Notes under the pieces: model-generated
What the model was told of the DNA's origin: nothing
The model's input: only the letters and a program-made list of their open reading frames with translations
Database searches by the model: none
Virus record (IMG/VR): IMGVR_UViG_3300044716_000883
Span: 115,382-179,381 of that record
DNA length: 64,000 bases
Direction: 5' to 3' (one strand)
From: a virus
Translations under genes and position numbers: made by a program
In this document: piece after piece, positions 41,224-45,584 of the stretch
Numbering within the stretch: the stretch's first letter is position 1
Layout: every line of letters starts with the position of its first letter

Positions 41224-41709
41224 ATGGCTGTATTATCACCAAACGAAATAATGTTCACAGCGTTTGAACCTAAAGTTCAGAATCGTTTTATCATGTACAT
41301 CGATGGTATTCCTGCGTACTTGATTAAAAAGGCATCTGCTCCTGGATTTGAAGCTGGTGAAATTATTTTAGATCATATCAACGTTTACCGTAAAGTTAAA
41401 GGTAAAGTTCGTTGGAATGACATGACTTTAGAATTATATGATCCTGTAACTCCATCAGGTGCACAATCAGTAATGGAATGGGCTCGTTTAGCACACGAAT
41501 CAGTAACAGGCCGCGATGGTTACTCAGATTTCTACAAAAAGAGCATCACATTAGACATCTTAGGTCCAGTAGGTGATGTAGTAGGTGAGTGGATTATCAA
41601 CGGTGCTTACGTTAAAACTGCAACTTTCGGTGAATACGATTGGAGCGCAGACGCAGCAGTTAGCTTATCAGTAGTGATAGCTATGGATTATTGCGTATTG
41701 AACTTCTAA
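41224..41709 (+). CDS. 19: Tail tube protein, gp19-like
   Basis: A 161-residue protein, close to T4 gp19 (163). The segments FEPKVQNRFIMYIDGIPAYLIKKASAPGFE, VYRKVKGKVRWNDMTLELYDPV, GYSDFYKKSITLDILGPVG and WIINGAYVKTATFGEYDWS are those of the T4-type/Hcp-like tube subunit. It stacks as hexamers inside the sheath. A strong terminator follows, consistent with the need for high and separate expression. Confidence 0.93.
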   Translation: MAVLSPNEIMFTAFEPKVQNRFIMYIDGIPAYLIKKASAPGFEAGEIILDHINVYRKVKGKVRWNDMTLELYDPVTPSGAQSVMEWARLAHESVTGRDGYSDFYKKSITLDILGPVGDVVGEWIINGAYVKTATFGEYDWSADAAVSLSVVIAMDYCVLNF

Positions 41710-41782: not shown

Positions 41783-42277
41783 ATGGAATTATTAAAGTCG
41801 TTTGATAAAACAAAACTAGATTTAGAAAATCCTTCACCATCGGGTTTTAATAGACTTGATACTATTACTGATTACAACGCTAATAGCACAGGTACCCCAA
41901 CTAGTAAAGCAAATCCTGGTGCACCATCTCGTTTCTTTCAAAAATTTGTTCCACAAGAAACATATTTACAATACGTTAAGAATTTATCTGGCAAAAGTAA
42001 TTTATTAAATTTAAGTGGCCTTAATAGTAGTATTGATCTTTCTACCAACACTAACTATACAATATTTGACGCTACTGACCTTGACATTGAAAAACCAGGA
42101 GTTAATGGTGGTATTCCATACAAACAAGAAAAAGACCCAACAGTATACCCAGTAACAGCACAAAGAGTAACACCATCAAGGGGGGCATTCCCAGTACAGG
42201 GAGAGGGTGCTAAAAAATATACCCAACCTTTTTCCCCAACTAAAACATACTCAGAGTTTATAAAGAAGTTTATTTAA
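41783..42277 (+). CDS. Virion/tail assembly protein, unknown
   Basis: A 164-residue protein, low in hydrophobic core, rich in Pro, Asn, Ser and Thr (ENPSPSGFNRLDTITDYNANSTGTPTSK, PYKQEKDPTVYPVTAQRVTPSRG). It is probably extended or disordered, like the protein at 45623, which is also Pro/Asn-rich and in the same operon. It could be a baseplate or tail accessory. It starts a new transcription unit after the terminator. Confidence 0.55.
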   Translation: MELLKSFDKTKLDLENPSPSGFNRLDTITDYNANSTGTPTSKANPGAPSRFFQKFVPQETYLQYVKNLSGKSNLLNLSGLNSSIDLSTNTNYTIFDATDLDIEKPGVNGGIPYKQEKDPTVYPVTAQRVTPSRGAFPVQGEGAKKYTQPFSPTKTYSEFIKKFI

Positions 42278-42340: not shown

Positions 42341-43084
42341 ATGGCTGAATTAAAAATTCCAACAGAAATCGTTTCGTTACCCTCAAAAGGTTTATTGTAC
42401 CCCGAGACATCCCCACTATCTAAAGGCGAAGTTGAGATGAAATATATGACGGCAAAAGAAGAAGATATTCTTACCAATACCAACTTTATTCGTCAAGGTA
42501 CCGTTATTGATAAATTATTACAAGCACTAATTGTAACACCAATTGATTACAATGAATTACTAATTGGTGATAAAAATGCAATATTAGTTGCTGCTCGTGT
42601 TTTAGGTTATGGTAAAGATTATTCTTTTACATACAATAGTAAAGAAGTATCTGTTGATTTATCTACATTAGAAGATAAAGTAGTTGACGAATCACTATTT
42701 ACCCGTGGCTCAAATGAATTTAATTTCACATTACCACACTCAGGTAACAACGTTACATTTAAATTATTAACACACGGTGACGAACAAAAAATCGAAGCTG
42801 AGATTAAAGGTTTATTAAAAGCAAACCCAAATGTGTCTACAGATGTTACTACACGTTTAAAACATATGATCACTTCAATTGAAGGTAAACGTGATCAAAA
42901 AGATATCCGTGATTTTGTTGATAATTACTTAATTGCTAAAGACGCTAGAGCATTACGTGAGTATTACGCTAAAATCCAACCAGATATTAATTTGCTATAT
43001 AAACCAGAAGATGGTAATTATACAGGGGAGGGTATAGCTATTCCGATTTCACTTAACTTTTTTTGGCCTGACTCAGGACTATAG
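42341..43084 (+). CDS. 26: Baseplate hub assembly protein, gp26-like
   Basis: A 247-residue protein. The opening IPTEIVSLPSKGLLYPETSPLSKGEVEMKYMTAKEEDILTN and the closing IPISLNFFWPDSGL are the landmarks of the gp26-type proteins of T4-like phages as I know them. In T4, gp26 helps build the baseplate hub and gene 51 comes next. Here the gp51-like reading frame overlaps the 3' end and lacks a start codon. A run of seven T at 43058-43064 lies just before the gene 26 stop, and a frameshift there would fuse the two. Confidence 0.75.
   Translation: MAELKIPTEIVSLPSKGLLYPETSPLSKGEVEMKYMTAKEEDILTNTNFIRQGTVIDKLLQALIVTPIDYNELLIGDKNAILVAARVLGYGKDYSFTYNSKEVSVDLSTLEDKVVDESLFTRGSNEFNFTLPHSGNNVTFKLLTHGDEQKIEAEIKGLLKANPNVSTDVTTRLKHMITSIEGKRDQKDIRDFVDNYLIAKDARALREYYAKIQPDINLLYKPEDGNYTGEGIAIPISLNFFWPDSGL
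43058..43064 (+). other. T7 slippery site for a probable +1/-2 frameshift between genes 26 and 51
   Basis: The 26 frame reads AAC TTT TTT TGG CCT GAC TCA GGA CTA TAG. One base forward (or two back) on the T run moves translation into the frame 0 ORF that reads GGC CTG ACT CAG GAC TAT AGA. That frame has no ATG, GTG or TTG between its preceding stop (43035) and the conserved residues. Confidence 0.6.
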
Positions 43085-43337
43085 ATTAGTATTATTTAAT
43101 CAAATCCACGAAATTGTATTTCACGGAAATGGTGGTTACGATTGGGACACTGTTTATAATATGCCTATTTGGTTACGTTTATTTACGTACAATAAAATGA
43201 AAGAACATTATGCTAAACAGAATGAGGAAAACGAAAAAATAAATAATCAATTACAAAATAAAGTTGCAAATATTGCAAAACCAAACATAAATCAACCACC
43301 CCCACCAACATACAAAGTAAAGGCGCCTAAGAAATAG
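43065..43337 (+). CDS. 51: gp51-like baseplate hub assembly protein, translated as frameshift extension of gp26
   Basis: The frame is open from 43038 to TAG 43337 but has no standard start codon. From the shift point it reads GLTQDYRLVLFNQIHEIVFHG, GGYDWDTVYNMPIWLRLFTY, a charged helix and a Pro-rich tail. HEIVFHGNGGYDWDTVYNMP plus IWLRLFTYNKM is what I recognise in gp51-type proteins, and 26 then 51 is the T4 gene order. The stop codon lies inside a terminator stem. A fusion made by ribosomal frameshifting is the simplest reading; an ATT or similar start is the alternative. The feature start is the first codon after the shift. Confidence 0.6.
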   Translation, partial: GLTQDYRLVLFNQIHEIVFHGNGGYDWDTVYNMPIWLRLFTYNKMKEHYAKQNEENEKINNQLQNKVANIAKPNINQPPPPTYKVKAPKK

Positions 43338-43358: not shown

Positions 43359-45584
43359 ATGCGCATAGATTTTACACCACGTTTATTTATGAATCCCCAA
43401 GCGGATCTTAAAGCAGCCCAGGAATTAGCTGAGGTTGTTGAGGTTCTTAAAGATTCCTTTAAGAGCTTAGGGGTTATTATTAAACAGGAAATTGGGGATA
43501 ATATTAAAGATGCTGATAAGTTTACAAAAGCTTATGGTAAAACATTAGCATCTGATCTTACAAGATCATTCAATAGTTTAGGTAAAAAAAGCGAAGAACT
43601 TCTTAAAAACCAAGAAGCATTAAAAAATGGTCAAGCTAAGAGTAAAGATATTCTAAAGCAAATTGAACAAATAGAGCAAAAAAGAAAAAATGTTTCTATT
43701 GATCTAAAAAATGCTCTTAAAGCAGGAGTAATAGACCAACAACAATACACAAATCTACTATCAGAATCCCTTCAAAAACACGAAGAAACAATTGAAGCTC
43801 TAAAAACCCAATCAGAGCATGCTATGCGTACTGAGAATGCAATGGGTAATTTAGGAAGTATTGTCAAGGGTTTAAATAAAATTCCTATATTAGGTAGTTT
43901 AATTAATAGTGAAAAGGTTTTAGAAAAAATGCAGCAAACTGCTGCTAAAACAGGAAGTTCTCTTGCTGTAATGGGAACCGGTATTCTTGAATTAGGTAAA
44001 AGTATTGGTAAAGGCTTTACTGATCCCCTTACAGTACTAACATTTTTTCTTAATGCTGGATTAAAAGCAGATAAACAAACTACTGAATTAGCTAAGTCTT
44101 TAGGTATAGGAAAAGATCAAGCAAGTGGTTTACGCCAAAACTTTGTTAGATATGCTGCCGCAACAGGAGATGCTTTTATCACTACTGATAAATTAGTAGA
44201 AGCCCAAGGTGAGTTAACTAATGAATTAGGAATAGCAGCCCAATATTCAGGCAAACAAACAGAAGATTTTACCCGTTTAACCAAATTAATGGGATTATCA
44301 GCGAATGAAGCTGGTAAATTGGCTCGTTTATCTGTTGTAAATGGTGCTTCAATAGAAGATACTACTAAATCAATTATTAAAGGATCAGCAGCTTCTCAAA
44401 GATCAAATAAGATTTCTGTTGATCAAAGAACAATATTAAAAGATGTAGCTAATCTAAGTGCAGGAATACTTGTTAAATTTCAAGGTAATCCAGAAGCATT
44501 AGGAGCAGCAGTCGTACAAGCAAGAGCATTAGGTTTAAATTTAGAAGAAGTAGATAAAATTGGTGAATCGCTTTTAAACTGGGAATCATCAATCGAAAAT
44601 GAACTTAAAGCTGAACTAATAACAGGTAAACAACTTAATCTAGAAAGAGCAAGAGCAGCTGCCTTAACTGGTGACCAAGCAGCATTAATGCAAGAAATAG
44701 GTTCGCAAGTAGGTACATTGGGAGAATACCAAAACATGAACGTTATAGCTCAAAAATCATTAGCTGAAGCGTTTGGGTTAAGTAGAGATGAGATGAGTAA
44801 AATGCTTATTGAACAAGAAAAAATTAATAAGCTGGGTGATGTATCTCAAATGACTCTTGATCAACAACTAGAAGCATTAAAAGCACAAGGTGAACCTTTA
44901 GATAGTGTTTTGTATAAACAAATCCAACAACAATCAGCACAAGAAAAATTCAATAATGCTATTTCAAAATTACAAGATTTAATTGGTAATTTAGTAGCAG
45001 GTCCTTTTGGTACCTTTATTGATATGTTATCTAATGCTGCAAGTAGTGGTTTTGCTCTTAAAGCAGCAATCGTAGCTATTGGTTCTTTATCATTAGCTAG
45101 AACAATAGGAAGTTTAGTAACTATGGCTTCTACATTATCGGCATCCGCGGTAGCTGGTACAACAACAGCATCAGCTCTTACATTAGGATTAGGTGCTGTA
45201 GCAATTGTTGCTGGAGTTACAGCTGTGATATCTATGATGAATAGTGCCTCAGATGAGGCTTCAAAAAGGGCACAACAAGTGCAAGATGGTATAGCATCTT
45301 CAAGTAAAGGTCCATTCACTATCACAGATAAATTTGGTGCAACTGCTATAACAGCAGCTGGTGATGGTATTGCTGTTTCACCTAACATTAATAAAGGTGG
45401 AGGTGGTGATAATACAGGATTAATGTCCGCAATCAATGAATTAAGAAACGCAGTAAACGCATTAGCTAATAAACCTGCACCAGCAATGGCAATACAAGTA
45501 GGCGCAGAAAAATTAGGTGAAGTCGTTGGAAGACAAGCAGAAACAGGTACTAACCAATACAAAAATGCATATAGACTAGCATAA
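43359..45584 (+). CDS. Tail tape measure protein
   Basis: A 741-residue protein. Residues ~10-170 are helical and coiled-coil-like (DSFKSLGVIIKQEIGDNIKDADKFTKAYG, KKSEELLKNQEALKNGQAKSKD). The middle is a long helical array with a hydrophobic block around residues ~550-640 (IVAIGSLSLARTIGSLV, LTLGLGAVAIVAGVTAVISMM) typical of tape measures. The C-terminus is a small module (VGAEKLGEVVGRQAETGTNQ). It sets tail length and is ejected into the host. In T4 this is gp29, following 26-51-27-28; the position agrees. Confidence 0.8.
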   Translation: MRIDFTPRLFMNPQADLKAAQELAEVVEVLKDSFKSLGVIIKQEIGDNIKDADKFTKAYGKTLASDLTRSFNSLGKKSEELLKNQEALKNGQAKSKDILKQIEQIEQKRKNVSIDLKNALKAGVIDQQQYTNLLSESLQKHEETIEALKTQSEHAMRTENAMGNLGSIVKGLNKIPILGSLINSEKVLEKMQQTAAKTGSSLAVMGTGILELGKSIGKGFTDPLTVLTFFLNAGLKADKQTTELAKSLGIGKDQASGLRQNFVRYAAATGDAFITTDKLVEAQGELTNELGIAAQYSGKQTEDFTRLTKLMGLSANEAGKLARLSVVNGASIEDTTKSIIKGSAASQRSNKISVDQRTILKDVANLSAGILVKFQGNPEALGAAVVQARALGLNLEEVDKIGESLLNWESSIENELKAELITGKQLNLERARAAALTGDQAALMQEIGSQVGTLGEYQNMNVIAQKSLAEAFGLSRDEMSKMLIEQEKINKLGDVSQMTLDQQLEALKAQGEPLDSVLYKQIQQQSAQEKFNNAISKLQDLIGNLVAGPFGTFIDMLSNAASSGFALKAAIVAIGSLSLARTIGSLVTMASTLSASAVAGTTTASALTLGLGAVAIVAGVTAVISMMNSASDEASKRAQQVQDGIASSSKGPFTITDKFGATAITAAGDGIAVSPNINKGGGGDNTGLMSAINELRNAVNALANKPAPAMAIQVGAEKLGEVVGRQAETGTNQYKNAYRLA

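Follow-up and report, generated by a model that had tools for sequence, protein, structure and literature searches.

A Putative Programmed +1 Frameshift Joining gp26- and gp51-Type Sequences in the Tail Assembly Chaperone Gene of T4-Related Phages

Introduction

How can a reading frame encoding a conserved tail domain be expressed when it has no start codon and overlaps the end of the gene before it? This question was raised by a phage sequence in which a gp26-like gene runs into such a frame, for which a preliminary description had proposed a "+1 or -2" slip at a run of seven T. The frameshift that produces the tail assembly chaperones G and GT of phage lambda (Levin 1993; Xu 2004) is reviewed in PMC5009743, where the G-T shift is described as conserved in long-tailed phages "except T4". 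The preliminary description had known of no such event for T4-type genes 26 and 51. This has to be corrected, since poly-T -1 signals in T4-like chaperone genes are credited by PMC12846349 to Vladimirov, Gautam & Davidson 2022 (Virology 566:9-15), a paper that, according to PMC10885494, also covers T4-like phages with short and long chaperone genes and no shift. As far as these citing articles convey it, the chaperone identity of gp26/gp51, the two-gene state of T4 and the -1 poly-T site were most likely already known.

A Start-Less Frame Overlaps the End of the gp26-Like Gene

The window, i.e., the whole stretch of 64,000 nucleotides of viral DNA that was analyzed, contained the following features at this locus:

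41224 to 41709, plus strand: tail tube protein gene, given as context (phrog_4542, E 4.9e-21)
42341 to 43084, plus strand: gp26-like gene, called as an ORF of 247 aa ending in ...LNFFWPDSGL and a stop; the unshifted short product
43055 to 43072, plus strand: putative shift cassette AAC TTT TTT T/GG CCT GAC (slash, shift), with a core invariant in 81 dereplicated junctions
43065 to 43337, plus strand: +1-frame extension of 90 aa, GLTQDYR...KAPKK and a stop, recognized as an open frame without a start, by a chain of hhalign comparisons and by codon-position bias
43359 to 45584, plus strand: probable tape measure gene, given as context and assigned by position, the gene in the same place in Flavobacterium phage immuto being annotated as tape measure

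As originally described, the second frame was open from 43038 to 43337, overlapped the end of the gp26-like gene and lacked a start, its first ATG, GTG or TTG lying at 43161, inside the conserved core. The overlapping pair was located between the tail tube gene and the long ORF at 43359-45584, for which profile searches gave no family match of its own. The T run occupied positions 43058-43064 within the codons AAC TTT TTT TGG, and a +1 slip at the P-site Phe codon (43061-43063) would skip one T and join gp26 and the extension into a protein of 331 aa. The motif CTTTYTTTGGCC occurred once in the window, against 0.02 occurrences expected.

Two further observations were made at this locus. The tail tube gene and gp26 were separated by a 164-aa ORF without a family match (41783-42277), and the sequence TATAG at the gp26 stop (43080-43086) was kept even in relatives with an earlier stop, e.g., GCCTGAGTATAGA.

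The Overlap and the Slip Site Are Conserved Among Relatives

IMG/VR was scanned with either part of the gene, and 156 loci containing both were retrieved, representing 91 distinct junctions. The downstream frame was offset by +1 in all 156 loci. After dereplication of the junctions at 95% identity (n = 81), the site NNC TTT YTT/T GG CCT GA was found to be fixed. The shift was directly preceded by the codons TTT TTT in 74 junctions and by TTT CTT in the remaining seven. The P-site codon was therefore TTT_T or CTT_T, respectively, in agreement with a YTT_T sequence able to re-pair in the +1 direction. The overlap, the missing start and the T run had been expected to recur together in relatives; the +1 frame recurred without exception, but the run of seven T proved not to be essential (TTTCTTT in 7/81).

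For each locus, the chance of an open stretch of 50 codons is about 1.3%. Outside the overlap, mismatches in the shifted frame were distributed over the three codon positions as 0.17/0.11/0.39, mainly at the third position, and because of this bias the second frame is taken to be translated and to be under selection as a protein.

Separately, a deletion across the junction was observed in locus L075 (1479-2358), which removes the cassette and truncates gp26 and possibly reflects an assembly error or a defective phage.

Related Phages Require Either a +1 or a -1 Shift

The +1 arrangement was also observed in three further sampled clades, the immuto-like (79/79 loci), Mel-JY01-like (75/78) and LR756508-like (17/18) phages, with three loci of the second and one of the third not scoring as +1. 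The isolates SP-15, LIS04, GXN1 and RM378 likewise require +1, and phage immuto, which infects a Flavobacterium, is a cultured member of the +1 group. In cyanophages, all of the 80 loci required a -1 shift, at nnT_TTT_TTC. The extension was also located in the -1 frame after T_TTT_TTY in the jumbo phages XacN1, RAS14, Atu_ph07, PA5oct, Phosso, 121Q and LR756511, as well as in phiM12, phiW-14 and HTVC008M.

The Extension Is Homologous to the C-Terminal Domain of T4 gp51

The gp26-like protein of the window matched phrog_150 (baseplate hub) with an E of 1.7e-8 and PF12322 with an E of 5.4e-5, the latter at 23.4 bits, just below the cut-off of 24.5; the best E for PF12322 among the relatives was 1.2e-21. 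Both T4 gp26 and T4 gp51 matched phrog_150 (E 7e-71 and 3e-84), gp51 reaching the end of this profile and gp26 stopping earlier, and by these matches the two proteins are one family. T4 gp26 ends in ...LKEFFELL at the family slip motif, while gp51, a single uninterrupted protein spanning both parts, continues into the domain that other phages would reach by shifting. Since both proteins are also listed as hub assembly chaperones by Leiman et al. (PMC3004832), the analogy with tail chaperones drawn in the preliminary description holds.

When the extensions were compared as profiles by hhalign, the +1 and -1 extensions matched at 96.8% and the -1 extension matched the gp51 C-terminus at 96.7%, the reversed controls giving 0.1-0.5%. 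The direct profile comparison of the window-clade extension with the T4 gp51 C-terminus was not significant (8%), so its homology rests on the chain through intermediates. A fused window profile was not significant against T4 gp51 either, because the profiles were shallow, and deeper profiles with the reversed controls were used in its place. By this chain, at 95-97%, the gp51-type C-terminal domain is present in the window extension. What had been called a gp51-like frame thus corresponds to the C-terminal extension of gp51 and not to the whole protein.

One gene with a gp26 body was found in each long or complete genome searched that had a +1 or -1 arrangement, and two were found in T4 and CP81. 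This genome contained one phrog_150 gene, against two in T4, and the Straboviridae arrangement of two full genes with their own starts was not found in it. On these gene counts, T4 has two paralogues, and phages of the present type have one gene combined with an apparent shift. The order of 26 followed by 51 had been said to match that of T4; the T4 genes are indeed adjacent, but they are divergently transcribed.

The short form was modeled by AlphaFold with a pLDDT of 90. The PDB match of highest probability among those shown was the HK97 tail assembly chaperone 2OB9, a weak one (prob 0.47, E 1.3). The viral structure matches of the short form were gp26/gp51-type proteins; a sequence search of the PDB gave no match.

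Two side observations were made in other phages. Campylobacter phage CP81 (22942-24254) carries two gp26-type paralogues in tandem and so adds to T4 another example of separate genes in place of a shift. In T4, the position at which the relatives carry the cassette is occupied by the junction of genes 26 and 25, which has a split ribosome binding site, and a common origin is conceivable.

The strongest competitor of a shift is that the downstream frame is an independent gene, translated by re-initiation after gp26 from a non-standard start such as ATT or the CTG at 43068. This had been raised in the preliminary description; the CTG, at +2, was invariant in the window clade, and cyanophages are annotated with a short gp51 as a gene of its own, beginning at an ATG directly behind gp26. 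Nevertheless, no Shine-Dalgarno (SD) sequence was present at initiation distance from the CTG, and the join was kept in SP-15, RM378, LIS04 and GXN1, which do not have it. The shift codons just upstream were invariant, both domains are continuous in T4 gp51, and the annotated start in HTVC008M removes part of the conserved domain. An independent start was consequently considered very unlikely.

Variant Sites Favor Ribosomal Slippage in the +1 Direction

Variants of the slip site also bear on what kind of slip would occur. Slippage of RNA polymerase at the T run would give a mixed mRNA, which the ribosome would read in frame, and homopolymers such as the T7 run present here do permit transcript slippage. 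However, the run comprises only seven T and is broken in many relatives that keep the +1 frame (TTTCTTT, TTCTTTT, TTTCTATGG), for which reason polymerase slippage is disfavored; in addition, the upstream hairpin with its SD-like loop (see below) points to translation. This reading was given even less credence than an independent start.

A -2 shift leads to the same frame as +1 and is allowed by frame arithmetic alone, and the choice between the two was made by reasoning from pairing rules. The relatives showed the variants TTT CTT TGG (window and immuto clades), TTT CTA TGG and TTC TTT TGG. In each variant, one P-site codon or more can still re-pair well after moving forward by a single base (TTT to TTT/TTC, or CTT to TTT as in prfB), and an acceptable two-base backward re-pairing exists in none. 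Furthermore, shifting in the related -1 clades takes place at another site, the canonical T_TTT_TTY. Since the variant sites permit +1 but not -2 re-pairing, a -2 shift is barely credible. The fusion proposed in the preliminary description is therefore strongly supported, and its direction resolves to +1.

A Covarying Hairpin With a Shine-Dalgarno-Like Loop Precedes the Slip Site

Upstream of the slip site, two more features were recognized:

43018 to 43037, plus strand: RNA hairpin with the stem TTATAC (43018-43023)/GTATAG (43032-43037) and the 8-nt loop AGGGGAGG (43024-43031)
43025 to 43032, plus strand: SD-like element GGGGAGGG, with near-invariant nucleotides and an excess in codon usage

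In a codon-level analysis, nucleotides were conserved beyond the needs of the protein in the pattern TAT-R-Y-N-GGGGAGGG-Y-ATA, between 42 and 25 nt upstream of the P-site codon. The codons of the SD-like element were nearly fixed (GGG in 74/81 and GAG in 79/81), although the same codons are rare in these genes, where GGG makes up 0.3% of codons and GAG was counted 15 times versus 83 for GAA. The loop is complementary to the 16S anti-SD, with a pairing energy of -10.9 kcal/mol against -5.9 in synonymous randomizations, and the distance from the SD-like element to the P site is 28 nt.

The R/Y pair of the stem was A-T in 48 and G-C in 33 of the 81 junctions, with no exceptions. Over the six stem pairs, 98.8% of the cells were paired with 52 double changes, a result reached by none of 500 shuffles, and slid stem registers paired at only 21-60%. 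On a tree built without the hairpin region, the stem sites changed 15 times each, and 11 of 11 supported independent pairs were coordinated. The hairpin had an MFE z of -2.4 versus synonymous randomizations. No relevant match was obtained in Rfam, and no downstream stimulatory structure was found (consensus 0 kcal/mol). A long-range pairing preferred by RNAalifold (upstream GGG/downstream GCC plus TATA/TATA) was rejected, as it showed no double changes and would pair mRNA inside the ribosome.

A sequencing error or gene decay as the source of the frame break, with a hairpin arising by chance from coding constraints, has a negligible probability: the deletion in L075 would fit decay, but the same break and cassette recur in hundreds of independently assembled loci, a conservation that refutes this reading, and the stem covaries in those 11/11 cases and exceeds the synonymous randomizations.

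The 3' foot of the hairpin was located about 23-24 nt upstream of the P-site slip codon, roughly the point at which mRNA leaves the ribosome. The hairpin, lying just outside the exit, may refold behind the ribosome, pulling the mRNA forward and opposing backward slips; alternatively, its loop may hold the 16S anti-SD. It is likely to be a stimulator of the +1 shift. Synthetic upstream hairpins are known to stimulate +1 and reduce -1 shifting in yeast (PMC3639245), and SD-stimulated +1 shifts have a known SD distance of 3 nt (PMC5009743).

The three further +1 clades also showed an SD-like peak, located at about -36 to -28, with the weakest margin over randomized sequences in the immuto-like one. 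In the -1 clade of the cyanophages the peak was located at about -18 to -10, near the classical 9-14 nt spacing of SD sequences in -1 shifting (PMC5009743).

As a separate observation, the interval separating the SD-like element from the slip site (about -26 to -6) often contained a small hairpin in the immuto-, Mel-JY01- and LR756508-like clades, with a mean z of about -0.6 to -1.7 giving it weak support. Examples such as TACCG-ATCA-CGGTA and GACATCC-CGAT-GGATGTC recall the bridged SD sites of T4 genes 25 and 38. In the Flavobacterium group, SD sequences are thought to be little used for initiation.

Discussion

Taken together, these results argue, with a probability of roughly 0.93, for programmed +1 frameshifting at this locus, yielding short and long tail assembly chaperones. 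The phage would be a T4 relative with a contractile tail, and the locus would encode its tail assembly chaperone. Most ribosomes would produce the short gp26-like form. In a fraction of them, at AAC TTT TTT TGG, the P-site tRNA-Phe would re-pair one base forward (TTT_T here; TTT_C or CTT_T in relatives), and translation continuing in the +1 frame would give the long form, ending in a counterpart of the T4 gp51 C-terminal domain. If the parallel with lambda G/GT holds, this long form would serve to connect the tape measure protein and the tail tube. The A-site codon at the shift, TGG, is a sense codon, which was counted against this reading. So were the SD distance of 28 nt, far greater than the 3 nt of known SD-stimulated +1 shifts, the non-significant direct comparison with the T4 gp51 C-terminus, the weak HK97 match and the few Mel-JY01- and LR756508-like loci that did not score as +1.

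The existing annotations are affected as well. In immuto (NC_055915.1), the 36-aa hypothetical protein KNV73_gp038 (locus L156, 4839-4949) covers just the end of the +1 extension and leaves the remainder of the domain unannotated, and the gp51 entries of cyanophages, pelagiphages and phiM12 are short ORFs of about 45-57 aa. The gp51 of the cyanophage (L192, 2218-2391) and of pelagiphage HTVC008M (L193, 16366-16503) is probably a -1 extension of gp26. The long chaperone has thus been missed or truncated in annotations.

Concerning earlier work, no description of a +1 shift in the gp26/gp51 family or of the upstream hairpin was found in the literature searched, most subscription journals lying outside it. 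What appears to be new is the +1 direction, together with the covarying hairpin on the 5' side and the differing SD spacing between +1 and -1 clades. It may be, at about even odds, that a 5' hairpin with an SD-like loop constitutes a new class of bacterial +1 stimulator and that shift direction has co-evolved with the position of the SD-like element within one family. The "except T4" gap is tied to a broad range of T4 relatives in which shifting apparently occurs, forward in some and backward in others, although their genes form a single homologous family. This provides a natural series for asking how the ribosome is pushed to +1 or -1, and the covarying hairpin with its SD-like loop is a concrete and easily testable putative stimulator.

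The proposed system resembles lambda G/GT in its short and long products, in the overlapping frames between the tail tube and tape measure genes, in a slippery site placed close to where the first frame ends and in a second frame without a start. However, lambda G/GT is a -1 system of another protein family, whereas a +1 shift with a conserved upstream hairpin and an SD-like loop is proposed here. T4 gp26/gp51 belong to the same family, gp26 being the counterpart of the short form and gp51 that of the long one; nevertheless, T4 has two separate genes and the poly-T sites of T4-like phages are cited as -1, in contrast to one gene and +1 here. In phage Adele (Vandenendeviridae/Andersonviridae, PMC12846349), a start-less downstream frame at a T-rich site was likewise misannotated as a separate gene, but the chaperone shift in those families, another phage group, is -1 at GTTTTT. 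The prfB (RF2) gene shares the +1 slip at YTT_T and an SD-like element upstream; its SD lies 3 nt away with the stop TGA in the A site, whereas here the SD-like element is at 28 nt in a hairpin loop, the codon is TGG and the system is not autoregulatory. Finally, a 5' hairpin that re-forms as the mRNA leaves the ribosome is shared with the synthetic hairpins of PMC3639245 and with the "zippering" of the take-off hairpin of T4 gene 60 (PMC5009743). The +1 test of PMC3639245 was synthetic and carried out in yeast, whereas the element described here is natural, covarying, equipped with an SD-like loop and found in a bacterial virus.
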